Below are positions 10,505-14,366 of a stretch of DNA of 38,223 nucleotides, piece by piece (position 1 is the first letter of the stretch; every line of letters starts with the position of its first letter). Made by a program: the position numbers and the translations under genes. The DNA comes from a virus. Location of the stretch: IMG/VR virus record IMGVR_UViG_3300013006_002411, positions 1 to 38,223 of that record. One strand, given 5' to 3'. A model generated the notes under the pieces. It was not told the DNA's origin and did no database searches. It was given only the letters and a program-made list of their open reading frames with translations.

Positions 10505-10717
10505 TCACTTTTTTTTACGCCTCGCGGCGACATACGTCACCGGCTCTTCAACATCGGGTTGCTTACCTTGATCACGGGCCACTTGAGAAGGCTTAGATCC
10601 ATTCTTTGGCTTGCTACGCGAAGGATAAAGATCCTTGGCAATTTGGACTGCATCAGCCGCACTGAGACTTTTGATAATCTCCTCCGGAAATCCTTCATCC
10701 CGGAGGATCCTCATCAC
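10505..10717 (-). CDS. Tail assembly chaperone, frameshifted C-terminal part
   Basis: A 70-codon reading frame after the gp41-like chaperone and before the tape measure, the place of the frameshifted chaperone extension in long-tailed phages. It lies in the -1 frame relative to 10732-11046. The -1 frame stays open upstream of the nominal GTG start through the end of gp41, with a possible slip at the Lys codon of GAAAAGGAG. No Shine-Dalgarno precedes the GTG or the next ATG. The product (EGFPEEIIKSLSAADAVQ, then a basic tail ending RRKKK) is charged and helical. The long gp41-extension fusion is inferred by analogy with known tail frameshifts; independent initiation is the alternative. Confidence 0.6.
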   Translation of the reverse strand: MMRILRDEGFPEEIIKSLSAADAVQIAKDLYPSRSKPKNGSKPSQVARDQGKQPDVEEPVTYVAARRKKK

Positions 10718-10731
10718 ACGGACGAGATTTA

Positions 10732-11046
10732 TCAGGCCACTTGTGCGGTCTGTGCGGCCATCCGCTCCTTTTCTTCGAGCGCCTCACGCAAGCCGATCAG
10801 ATAGACACGGTTCTGATTGGCAGATGTGATCAACTGCTCGTAGGTCACTTGGGTGGCACCTTCAGCACCGTGAGTCCAGGTGAGCATAGAGGCCAGCTCA
10901 TTGACCTGGACATACTGACCTTGTTTGGCTTTGCTGATCGCGGACAGGCTTTCCTCCATGGTCAGGGCAGACATGGTGACTTCCTGCATTGGCTGGCCAT
11001 TGACCACGATAGGAACAGGCAGCTTGCCTTCTATAGAGATACCCAT
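10732..11046 (-). CDS. Tail assembly chaperone, Mu gp41-like
   Basis: A 104-aa protein between the tail tube and the tape measure. The N-terminal part (IEGKLPVPIVVNGQPMQEVTM) and the helical part beginning LTMEESLSAISKAK fit the small tail assembly chaperones of the E/gp41 type. These bind the tape measure protein while the tube polymerises. Its 3' end overlaps, in the -1 frame, an open stretch leading into 10505-10717, the classic arrangement for a frameshifted longer form. The identity rests on size, composition and gene order more than on strong motifs. Confidence 0.7.
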   Translation of the reverse strand: MGISIEGKLPVPIVVNGQPMQEVTMSALTMEESLSAISKAKQGQYVQVNELASMLTWTHGAEGATQVTYEQLITSANQNRVYLIGLREALEEKERMAAQTAQVA

Positions 11047-11049
11047 GGA

Positions 11050-11421
11050 TTAAGACTCCTTAATTTTGTCGAGGGCGTACATTTCAAGCGAACGCTTAGC
11101 CTCGCCTCCATCAGTGAAGGTGTCGCCAACGGTGGTGACGCCGACACCGGTATAGGTAGTCCGATTTGTACCATCCAGAGATTGGATGGTGATGGTGGCA
11201 CCAGAGATGGTGTCCCAAGCCAGATCACCTGTCTCAGGGATCACGACCTCGACCGAAAGTGCTATTGACGAAGTAGTTTTACATTCGCGCTGCACTCGGC
11301 CATTCGAGTTCATGGTCGAGACTGGCTTGCGACCTGCCGTGATCTTTGGTGTGCATGAGGTGCAGTCCACCTCCTGACCATTCACGTAGAGCACAATCGT
11401 ACCGACGACTTCCGTACCCAT
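11050..11421 (-). CDS. Tail tube protein (Mu M family)
   Basis: A 123-aa protein in the tube position directly after the sheath. It begins MGTEVVGTIVLYVNGQEVD and contains the tube-family block KPVSTMNSNGRVQR, followed by beta strands ending GGEAKRSLEMYAL, close to the Mu M pattern. Length agrees with the Mu tube (about 118 aa). It should polymerise into the inner tail tube, surrounded by the sheath made from the three reading frames upstream. Confidence 0.85.
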   Translation of the reverse strand: MGTEVVGTIVLYVNGQEVDCTSCTPKITAGRKPVSTMNSNGRVQRECKTTSSIALSVEVVIPETGDLAWDTISGATITIQSLDGTNRTTYTGVGVTTVGDTFTDGGEAKRSLEMYALDKIKES

Positions 11422-11434
11422 TGCTTATACCTCT

Positions 11435-12238
11435 TTAGTAGACATTTAAAGTGACAGCAGTAACATGCATGCCTCGCACCCAATGAGCAGGTACCTGCAC
11501 ATCAGCCTGCGTCAGATCTTGTGCATCCTGAGCCACGGTCAGCTGATTCTGATCTGCGCGGACATCTTCAAGAATCTCTGCGTCCTCAAGCGCCATATAG
11601 GCAGTGAGGAGCGCCGTGCGAAGCGTAGAACGCGCATCAGAAGTATTTTTCTGACGTGGGAAAGCGCTTTTGACAGCACGAGTCACCTTACGCACATATG
11701 CCAGCACCAAAGGGCCATTCACATCGAGCATGATGGTGTCTGGTGTACCATCTGGCTTTTGCTGATAAGTGGTGATCAGTCGCACGATCTTTGGCACACC
11801 GTCATCACCAGTTGCAACCACTGCCACACCGGCATTGAGTGCCTGCTCGATGCGGGAACGAGTCAGCGTGAACTTGGGATCCACGGCAGTCAGACCAGGC
11901 AGCTCGATATCATCGAACGGCACCGCAGGATCTGCACCACTGGCCATGGCTGCTGCAATGGACGCAGACAGCTGAGGCAGTTGGGTGGTGCCGTGGTAGC
12001 ACACCGCAACGAAGCGGTAGTTGCTGAGCGACTCAGCATAAGCCGCAAAAGTCGTGGCAGCATCGATGTCGTTGAACGGTACGACCAGGATGGCGTCGTG
12101 CTGCTCAATTGGGCCAGATACGGTATTCAGATAGTTCTGCCATGCGGCAGCATCTGCCTCTGCAGTGATTGAGCTGTCCAGGGCGATGATGGTATGCCCG
12201 AGCGGTTCAATCACGTTCAAAATATCTTGCAAAGCCAT
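11435..12238 (-). CDS. Tail sheath, C-terminal core (split gene, part 3)
   Basis: A 267-aa protein equal to the C-terminal half or more of a Mu L-type sheath. Recognisable are HDAILVVPFND, a hydrophobic ALRG-like YHGTTQLPQL region, the block IVRLITTYQQKPDGTPDTIMLDV (near-universal in Mu-like sheaths) and the terminal DQNQLTVAQDA and VRGMHVTAVTLNVY strands. The normal sheath start (IRTPGTYVEFD-type) is missing here and is found in a separate frame at 12616-12897. The ATG has its own good ribosome site (GAGGTGA, 5 bases upstream), so this part is translated independently. It lies in the same frame as part 2, after one TAA and four codons. This is the part that forms most of the contractile core. 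Confidence 0.85.
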   Translation of the reverse strand: MALQDILNVIEPLGHTIIALDSSITAEADAAAWQNYLNTVSGPIEQHDAILVVPFNDIDAATTFAAYAESLSNYRFVAVCYHGTTQLPQLSASIAAAMASGADPAVPFDDIELPGLTAVDPKFTLTRSRIEQALNAGVAVVATGDDGVPKIVRLITTYQQKPDGTPDTIMLDVNGPLVLAYVRKVTRAVKSAFPRQKNTSDARSTLRTALLTAYMALEDAEILEDVRADQNQLTVAQDAQDLTQADVQVPAHWVRGMHVTAVTLNVY

Positions 12239-12250
12239 TACATCACCTCG

Positions 12251-12592
12251 TTATACAGCTGGAATAAGACAGACTTGGAAACCGTCGCGTCCTGGCAACT
12301 CCTGATAGGTTGGATTGCTCACGTCTGCGACTGGTGTCGTGAAGATGGCAGATCCGTCGCTGGTGTAAACCTTCATCCGGATATTGCCGCCACCCGCCCA
12401 TTGCACGTAGTAAAAATAGTTATCCTCTGAGGCACTCACTCTGACATCGCTTTGCAGCGTTGGCAGTACCGTGTTAAACCAATAGCCCAGAGACTGATTT
12501 AATGGTACGTGGTAGGTTGTCCCATTGATCTCAACCACCCACGGCACCGTTACATTGGACGAAACAAAGTGATAGCCATTCGTCCAGTTCAC
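12251..12592 (-). CDS. Tail sheath, middle or protruding domain (split gene, part 2)
   Basis: A 113-codon frame from a GTG to TAA, open further upstream without stops to the slippery site at 12634-12640. The product is rich in aromatic and beta-forming residues (WVVEINGTTYHVPLNQSLGYWF, split here as two parts: WVVEINGTTYHV and LNQSLGYWF). Such a strand-helix pattern, VNG-x-Y-x-V then an amphipathic helix, resembles the variable inserted domain of Mu-like sheaths. No Shine-Dalgarno precedes the GTG, so translation probably comes from a -1 frameshift out of part 1. It has no clear homologue that I can name. Part 1, 2 and 3 together have about the length of an ordinary Mu L sheath. Confidence 0.6.
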   Translation of the reverse strand: MNWTNGYHFVSSNVTVPWVVEINGTTYHVPLNQSLGYWFNTVLPTLQSDVRVSASEDNYFYYVQWAGGGNIRMKVYTSDGSAIFTTPVADVSNPTYQELPGRDGFQVCLIPAV

Positions 12593-12602
12593 CGCACTAG
12601 AA

Positions 12603-12640
12603 GCCCCCTCGCAACTTATGCTGGAGGCACCCCCTTTCCC
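12603..12640 (-). promoter_or_regulatory. Candidate -1 ribosomal frameshift signal in sheath gene
   Basis: Read on the - strand, codons CTG GGA AAG GGG GTG give the in-frame heptamer G GGA AAG (12640-12634), the same slippery sequence used in lambda G-T, overlapping a second possible heptamer A AAG GGG. Five bases later GCCTCC (12628-12623) can pair with GGGGGC (12608-12603), a 6-bp stem with a 14-base loop. The -1 frame then runs open into part 2. A one-base indel in the G5 run is the alternative. Confidence 0.6.
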
Positions 12641-12897
12641 AGCGCTTGCACATTCACTTGAGTGTTGACAGCAAGCGCAGCGGTCATCATCTGCCCGGCG
12701 ATACTTGAGACACCGAGGGCAGCATCTGCCGTCGAGGTGTCATAGATCGTGACCGGCAGCGTCTGGCCATCTGTTTGAAACCGATCTGCTGTGATGAAGA
12801 GCAGCTTCTGAGGATTCAGTGGCAGACCTGTCCGCTGGGTATCCAGGTTGTAGTCCACATAAGTCCCAGGTGTCCGGATTCCTGATGGAATTGTCAT
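12616..12897 (-). CDS. Tail sheath, N-terminal core (split gene, part 1)
   Basis: A 93-aa protein beginning MTIPSGIRTPGTYVDYNLD, the typical N-terminus of Mu L-type sheaths (RTPGTYV-E/D-F/Y-D). It then has strands LLFITAD, VTIYDTSTADAALG and the helix GQMMTAALAVN. A normal sheath would continue for about 400 more residues, but here the frame stops at TAA 12616-12618 after GKGVPPA. A slippery site lies seven codons before that stop. The same domain, about half identical, begins the 660-aa protein at 1-1983. In known sheaths this region contributes the first core strands and the N-terminal arm that links neighbouring subunits. Confidence 0.8.
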   Translation of the reverse strand: MTIPSGIRTPGTYVDYNLDTQRTGLPLNPQKLLFITADRFQTDGQTLPVTIYDTSTADAALGVSSIAGQMMTAALAVNTQVNVQALGKGVPPA

Positions 12898-12910: not shown

Positions 12911-13768
12911 TTACTGAAGTGTCAAAGAGGCACTGGTGGGATTGGAGTTGATGCCAGACCCAGTGATCTGCACATTGACATCCATCACCACCGAGTGGCC
13001 TGTCGAAGACAGCGTGCCTGCCAGATTGACCGATCCAGCGGATATATCAGTCGAGGTCAGCGTGTATGGGCTGACGCTATAGACGCCAGCTGCAGGCGAG
13101 CCATTCTCGGAGAAGTTCGCATTGGTCAGGATCTGGTCACCGGCTTGTACGTCCGTGCTCGGCAGATCTACTTTGATCGAGAGACTGGAGCCAAGCGTGT
13201 ATTCCGTGGTTTCAAGGATGCCGTCCTGGTTCACGTCCGCAGGGAATGTCACCGAAGTCGGCGCACCGATTACCACGCGAGTAGAGCTGCTGCTATTAAG
13301 CGTGCCACCACTGGCCAGCGATTGATTCTGCACCATGGTGCCATAGCCCCAGTTCTGTGGCTGCAAGGTGGTTTGCACGTTATACAGACCATTCACAGGA
13401 GCGACACCAGCTTGCGGCACAGAGGTAGCTACATTGACGGTCTGTGCGACTCCAGAGAGGTTGATCACCTGAAACTGCAGGACACGCACACCAGGATCAA
13501 GCAGCAGTTGGACGCCCTGATCAGCAGAGGTGTCGGCAGGGATCAAGATAGCTGCTGTAGCATTCGCGCCGGTGATGGTGAGCGGGCCAGTCAGTGGCGC
13601 AGTTGCATCGAAGTTAGCAGCAGTACCGGCACCAGTACCGACACTGCCTCCATTCAGATCCTGGACAGCAGCCACGAGGGCATTAAACTTCGTCAGAAAT
13701 TCGCCGGAAGACAGATCGCGGGTATCGACGTTGAGAGTGAAAGATCCTGAAATCGTAGAGCCTGTCAT
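12911..13768 (-). CDS. Ig-like, Ca-loop protein upstream of sheath
   Basis: A 285-aa beta-rich protein placed between gp37 and the sheath, where Mu has only the small gp38. The first 80 residues (FLTKFNALVAAVQDLNGGS and a Gly/Ala/Thr linker) could be an attachment region. The rest resembles bacterial Ig-like repeats. It contains an EF-hand-like loop DVNQDGILETTE preceded by TFPA, and later GDQIL, the same combination seen twice in the 660-aa protein (FPADTNGDG, IPADTNNDG, GDQIF). No signal peptide or membrane segment is seen. A virion decoration or adhesin role is inferred from its repeats and position; no specific family is recognised. Confidence 0.65.
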   Translation of the reverse strand: MTGSTISGSFTLNVDTRDLSSGEFLTKFNALVAAVQDLNGGSVGTGAGTAANFDATAPLTGPLTITGANATAAILIPADTSADQGVQLLLDPGVRVLQFQVINLSGVAQTVNVATSVPQAGVAPVNGLYNVQTTLQPQNWGYGTMVQNQSLASGGTLNSSSSTRVVIGAPTSVTFPADVNQDGILETTEYTLGSSLSIKVDLPSTDVQAGDQILTNANFSENGSPAAGVYSVSPYTLTSTDISAGSVNLAGTLSSTGHSVVMDVNVQITGSGINSNPTSASLTLQ

Positions 13769-13778
13769 AATGAATATC

Positions 13779-14366
13779 TCAGTATTGATTTAAATTGATA
13801 AGGTCGCTTGCCTGACTATCCTGTGATGCTGGATCAAGGTGATAGTCCACATTGATTTTTTCGAGCCAGTCGGCTTCGAGCGAAGCAAAGTCAGTGCGGT
13901 CGACATACATATAGGTATGGAAGTCAATGGCCAGCACAGATACGGCCTCGTTGTTCGTTTTGGTGTTGAAGATCTGCATGATCTTGCCGGGTTGCATCTG
14001 ATTGATCGACAGACCGAAGTCCTGACCAGCGACGGCATACAGCACATCAGACACAAGCTGATAAGACCCCACGCGGAACTGCTGACCATTGACGACAGTG
14101 CCCTGACGAGCGGTTTCCTCATTTCGTACAGATCGGGCACCGACCAAGACCGTCCAGGTCAGATCTACATGCCACTTTTTGGCTCCGATCGTCTTGACGG
14201 ATGGCGCACCAGAGAACGTCACCCAGACAGCTGGAAACTTCTTCACCACCTGATTCAGGTCATCATCAAACTCACCCCCATAGGTGCGGATCTCGTTCAG
14301 GTACTCACGGCCCAGATTCTTGATTGCATCTTTGATGGCTTGTTCGATGGCTGACAGGCTTACCAT
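13779..14366 (-). CDS. Tail terminator-like protein, Mu gp37 (DUF1834)
   Basis: A 195-aa protein of the DUF1834/Mu gp37 family: start IEQAIKDAIKNLG, the strand FPAVWVTFSGA, the block WHVDLTWTVLVGARSVRNEETAR and a later helix SYQLVSDVLYAVAG. It follows gp36 with a 7-base overlap, as in Mu. Family context suggests a protein at the head-tail junction or tail end; the exact role is inferred. Confidence 0.78.
   Translation of the reverse strand: MVSLSAIEQAIKDAIKNLGREYLNEIRTYGGEFDDDLNQVVKKFPAVWVTFSGAPSVKTIGAKKWHVDLTWTVLVGARSVRNEETARQGTVVNGQQFRVGSYQLVSDVLYAVAGQDFGLSINQMQPGKIMQIFNTKTNNEAVSVLAIDFHTYMYVDRTDFASLEADWLEKINVDYHLDPASQDSQASDLINLNQY

Follow-up and report, generated by a model that had tools for sequence, protein, structure and literature searches.

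A split Mu-type contractile sheath with a conserved candidate -1 frameshift site and a putative exchangeable extension

Contractile sheaths and frameshift-extended tail proteins

To our knowledge, phage sheaths have been described as having one chain per protomer, the type VI secretion system (T6SS) being the known two-chain case among contractile systems. In phage Mu, gpL (PDB 9khy, 9ki1) is one chain of 495 aa into which a protruding domain is built. The T6SS sheath is made of two proteins, TssB and TssC (VipA/VipB) (PMC9230969). Frameshifting also produces long forms of repeated phage proteins, such as gp17.1* of SPP1, TpeX of the lactococcal 936 phages and the Ig-like extensions of phage coat and tail proteins, and the tube extensions of SPP1 and 936 bind, or are proposed to bind, cell surfaces (PMC8718954, PMC6669499, PMC5009743).

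Here, we report the analysis of a viral window of 38,223 nucleotides, the whole stretch of DNA under study, whose sheath locus resembles that of Mu by its homologous core and by its neighbours, gp37 and the tube gene. While Mu has a single chain, the window has two, with an optional extension at the position of the protruding domain. Judging from this locus and its relatives, we consider it likely that the two chains replace Mu gpL and that an exchangeable domain, located where Mu has its protruding domain, is added to some copies of the N-terminal chain by programmed -1 frameshifting.

The T6SS sheath, although also built from two chains, is an analogue of the window sheath and not a member of the same family. 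The window carries two sheath genes whose joint assembly is putative, the TssB/TssC sheath is without a frameshift extension, and no sequence match to the TssB/TssC families was found in the window, where Pfam returned only phage sheath models at E up to 1. The frameshift-extended tube proteins of SPP1 and 936 would be the nearest functional model. In them a repeated tail protein has a short and a long form, and the gene architecture of the window fits a putative pair of this kind. However, in these systems and in the Ig-like cases compared, the carrier is a tube or capsid protein encoded by an unsplit gene, whereas in the window it is a split contractile sheath. Indeed, the extension is carried by the N-terminal sheath part (sheath-N) and not by the tail tube protein, which has its own gene (11050-11421, minus strand, as are all features below).

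The sheath locus of the window

Sheath-N (12616-12897, 93 aa), the zero-frame product, corresponds to the N-terminal sheath core and matches phrog_5292 (E 7e-22) and positions 7-92 of phrog_165. Sheath-C (11435-12238, 267 aa), which has its own start, corresponds to the C-terminal core and matches positions 213-491 of phrog_165 (E 1e-49), PF04984 and PF17482. The matches are confined to roughly the first ninety positions of the sheath profiles for sheath-N and to roughly the last 280 for sheath-C, in agreement with the assignment of the two open reading frames (ORFs) made by the first-pass annotation. Both parts are homologous to the corresponding parts of a Mu gpL-type core and are present as separate ORFs with stops, in the window as in its relatives, with which they share 45-55% (sheath-N) and about 50% (sheath-C) identity. 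The locus also comprises gp37 (13779-14366), a 285-aa protein at the gp38 position (12911-13768) ahead of sheath-N, and the tube gene next to sheath-C. The G+C content of the window (54%) is above that of the Acinetobacter loci described below.

The first-pass annotation had the sheath spread over three reading frames. Three ORFs do exist where it placed them, but only two frames are used, as the middle stretch (12251-12592) and sheath-C lie in one frame with a single TAA between them. Moreover, the middle frame is open well upstream of its GTG, from 12739, within sheath-N, through the heptamer described below to the TAA at 12253-12251. This upstream opening, the frameshift signal and a second copy of sheath-N had been overlooked. 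The proposal that the breaks fall near domain borders holds: sheath-N aligns to Mu 9-94 and sheath-C to a later region, and in the alignment with SuMu the split position is the site of the extra domain, the insert of an intact SuMu-type sheath. The strong ribosome site attributed to the last part was likewise found, as a Shine-Dalgarno sequence read as GAGGTGAT at 12242-12249, just before the ATG of sheath-C.

The second sheath-N copy opens a 660-aa ORF (1-1983), in which it is fused in frame to beta-rich repeats and which adjoins a tail-fibre-like gene; in its first 78 bases the copy is 81% identical at the DNA level. It is possibly a permanently decorated sheath-N, and no such copy was found in nine related records. 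The 285-aa protein and this paralogue have FPADxNxDG-type repeats in common (E 3e-6, pairwise comparison).

We propose the following scheme for the expression of this locus. Sheath-N and sheath-C would jointly form the protomer core, for which Mu gpL uses one chain. Most ribosomes would read past the sequence G GGA AAG near the end of sheath-N and stop within 0-12 codons, which would yield the bare chain, and a fraction of them would slip back by one base to produce sheath-N with an extension, of 127 aa in the window. Translation of sheath-C would begin separately at its own ribosome site. The resulting tail would bear a mosaic sheath of bare and extended protomers, the extensions pointing outward; these would be exchanged between phages and would probably aid weak binding to cell surfaces. 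Frameshifting and its rate, the assembly of sheath-N with sheath-C, the presence of the products in virions and the role in binding are what we infer from the genes.

A slippery heptamer conserved among relatives

Relatives of the locus were collected by scans of IMG/VR and GTDB and come from Acinetobacter and related bacteria; the group is known here from prophages and viral contigs alone, and no split sheath was found among the isolate phages of the collection searched. They fall into three classes. Class a consists of short sheaths (355-367 aa) that are unsplit and lack a protruding domain. Class b, the window type, has sheath-N, a -1 frame extension and sheath-C. In class c, a sheath-N of 109-119 aa precedes one or two genes with starts of their own, of which the large one is of the tail-fibre type, and sheath-C comes last. 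In addition, sheath-N and the extension are fused in the zero frame in L058, which has no heptamer, in L106 (GGGAAAC) and in L034 and L107 (GGGAAAG). At the order and class levels, the sampled sheath genes were intact, with about 484-529 aa, apart from that of the Acinetobacter seed genome; one weak match sits in an unrelated 1207-aa frame.

As expected of a programmed -1 frameshift site, the window has an in-phase X XXY YYZ heptamer and an overlapping open -1 frame. The heptamer, G GGA AAG (12634-12640), is in the canonical -1 phase and of lambda type. On its 3′ side, the zero frame ends after a further five codons (GVPPA), whereas the -1 frame runs for 127 codons (12251-12634), which contain the middle ORF and a cysteine-bounded module (CEGA ... 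CL). In E. coli, G_GGA_AAG is a highly shift-prone sequence, and HCTV-5 uses it as its g-t shift site (PMC5009743).

The site and the -1 coding frame are conserved across relatives with one exception. After removal of duplicates and with the window included, the exact GGGAAAG occurs at the same codons in 31 of the 32 unique genes with a -1 frame extension. The exception, L205, keeps the -1 frame but has a G-run, CTGGGGGAG, at the junction, and counts against our explanation. Overall, 34 sheath-N genes carry an in-phase GGGAAA[GC] at these codons, namely the 31 with a -1 long product and three others, L034, L106 and L107. In these three the frames are exchanged: the zero frame encodes the long product, and a stop closes the -1 frame within one to four codons. 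The extension of L058 lies in the zero frame without a heptamer, so the bare form is not needed everywhere. At L034 (2696-4819), two sheath-N genes stand in tandem, a 425-aa fusion and then the heptamer-bearing gene with its zero-frame long form.

In genes of class a or class c, no GGGAAAG was found at the junction, and the in-phase heptamer has zero copies in 18,283 codons of sheath-C. From the codon use of each locus, the joint chance of the three heptamer codons is 0.002-0.036, or about 1e-18 over ten clusters, figures that are indicative only since both the amino acids and the codon identities were read off the observed site. The zero-frame tail is 0-12 codons long across relatives, and in six loci a stop lies directly 3′ of the heptamer. 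Stimulatory signals are less constant: downstream stems or upstream Shine-Dalgarno-like sequences are present in part of the loci only, no downstream RNA structure conserved across relatives was found, and the possible stem-loop just 3′ of the window heptamer (12599-12632) is weak (z about -1.2 to -1.9) and not kept in relatives. The tail chaperone genes were considered as a control within the window, and no suitable heptamer was found at their junction (10732-11046 / 10505-10717).

The extension could alternatively be a separate protein started inside the -1 frame by translational coupling, the heptamer being incidental. A -1 frame ATG indeed lies six bases before the heptamer in 10 of the 22 loci checked, in the window a GTG at 12592 is preceded by GAGG, and sister prophages encode the cargo as a separate gene. 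We nevertheless regard this as unlikely. An internal start is not common to the loci, as none lies near the junction in L031, L033, L043, L045, L084 and L089, and 20 of the 22 loci have no Shine-Dalgarno match at it. The heptamer, in contrast, is near universal, and conservation of the protein sequence begins at the heptamer itself in the pairs L053/L066 and L080/L093.

Two other routes to a longer product were rejected. Readthrough of the stop codon, which would link the middle part with sheath-C, does not suit the relatives, where sheath-C lies 2 to over 1,500 nt past the -1 stop, sometimes with whole genes between. Transcriptional slippage can be set aside by inference, as GGGAAAG contains no long homopolymer. 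In L031 (4164-4971), the stretch between the -1 extension and sheath-C holds what look, by eye, like a glycosyltransferase gene and the beginning of a GalE-like one, as though foreign genes were taken up there.

Seen in the window alone, the shift of frame and the stop within what Mu has as one gene might be taken for a damaged sheath gene or for a sequencing or assembly error. This is barely credible given that about thirty distinct genes, found in isolates as well as in metagenomes, share the architecture, that the neighbouring genes are intact and that the -1 extension is under purifying selection. Indeed, in close pairs, the -1 extensions have dN/dS values of 0.08-0.23 (dS 0.24-1.7), which indicates such selection. 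On this comparative evidence, the split is real and conserved, and not damage. The first-pass annotation had favoured a working split sheath and suggested looking for the same split in related phages; dozens of related prophages have it, and it recurs with the same heptamer in about thirty distinct relatives.

The extension and the history of the split

The window extension is a member of a divergent module family with two invariant cysteines (CxGA ... CL), which occurs in one to four tandem copies in other -1 extensions. At L049 (3073-4956), a 628-aa -1 extension comprises four tandem cysteine-bounded modules. The -1 extensions also include unrelated modules, and some loci are without the CxGA ... 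CL motif. No named family was found for the window extension in Pfam or PHROGs, and the extensions of relatives gave weak matches to PHROGs of unknown function. Similarly, a viral structure library gave no match at E 0.001 or below, and a PDB profile search of the module returned non-significant matches only, carbohydrate-binding proteins among them.

The AlphaFold2 model of the window extension is beta-rich (mean pLDDT 77). None of its structural matches is strong (best Z 5.5), but among these weak matches are the extra domain of the Mu sheath (residues 99-213, Z 4.6) and one from cyanophage A-1(L). When compared with intact Mu-type protruding domains, the extension profile gave E 0.006 with low probability, control comparisons giving 0.2-0.5. 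The first-pass annotation had proposed 12251-12592 as a protruding domain. This proposal is weakly supported by the shared position, by a beta-beta-beta-alpha-beta-beta-beta order and by the weak fold and profile matches; descent of the extension from the protruding domain is possible.

The kind of slippery site used here also serves lambda gpG/gpGT, both products of which are absent from mature virions (PMC5009743). By analogy, frameshifting might occur in the window to make an assembly helper that is missing from the finished tail. We find this very unlikely, since the lambda proteins are assembly chaperones, encoded by another gene and for another purpose, and sheath-N is part of the sheath itself. 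Furthermore, unrelated modules can stand in place of the extension, as do tail-fibre-like proteins in sister prophages, a pattern more in keeping with a surface component. In the class c loci L002-L019, the 3′ ends of sheath-N encode LxTExG-like repeats directly before the tail-fibre-like gene, perhaps a docking peptide for its product.

We retain a decorated sheath as the preferred reading, and its history can be approached from the relatives. The model of an unsplit relative superimposes on the Mu sheath with Z 27.3 over 321 residues. In a maximum-likelihood tree of sheath-C, the unsplit short sheaths form one clade (100/97) nested among class b, and class c arises several times. Support is moderate (80-87%) for the branches that connect the unsplit clade with single class b rows, and the outgroup branches are long, so the root is less sure. 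The first-pass annotation had counted close relatives with a single intact frame as evidence against the split. Such relatives formally exist in class a, but they form one clade inside the split group and therefore look re-fused. The simplest history compatible with these sequences would comprise a single split with its frameshift site, replacement by separate cargo genes on several occasions and a single re-fusion.

For no phage did we find a description of a two-protein sheath with a putative frameshift-added exchangeable domain. In a search that covered few subscription journals, no paper was found that mentions either a split sheath in a phage or frameshifting in a sheath gene, and the words 'split' and 'frameshift' are absent from the text of a paper on sheath evolution (PMC9230969). 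Gene finders annotate the parts of such sheaths as short proteins unrelated to one another, and the extended form escapes them.

We tentatively suggest, with somewhat less than even confidence, that the protruding domain has become a dosed and swappable accessory, the ratio of bare to decorated N chains being set by frameshifting, and that the sister set, with tail-fibre-like proteins between the two halves, would carry adhesins on the length of the sheath as well as at the baseplate. If true, this would be the first frameshift-dosed decoration of a contractile sheath known to us, taking the place that extended tube proteins have in non-contractile phages. More generally, a natural family of two-chain phage sheaths with unsplit, split and apparently re-fused members would make the costs and benefits of splitting a sheath testable.
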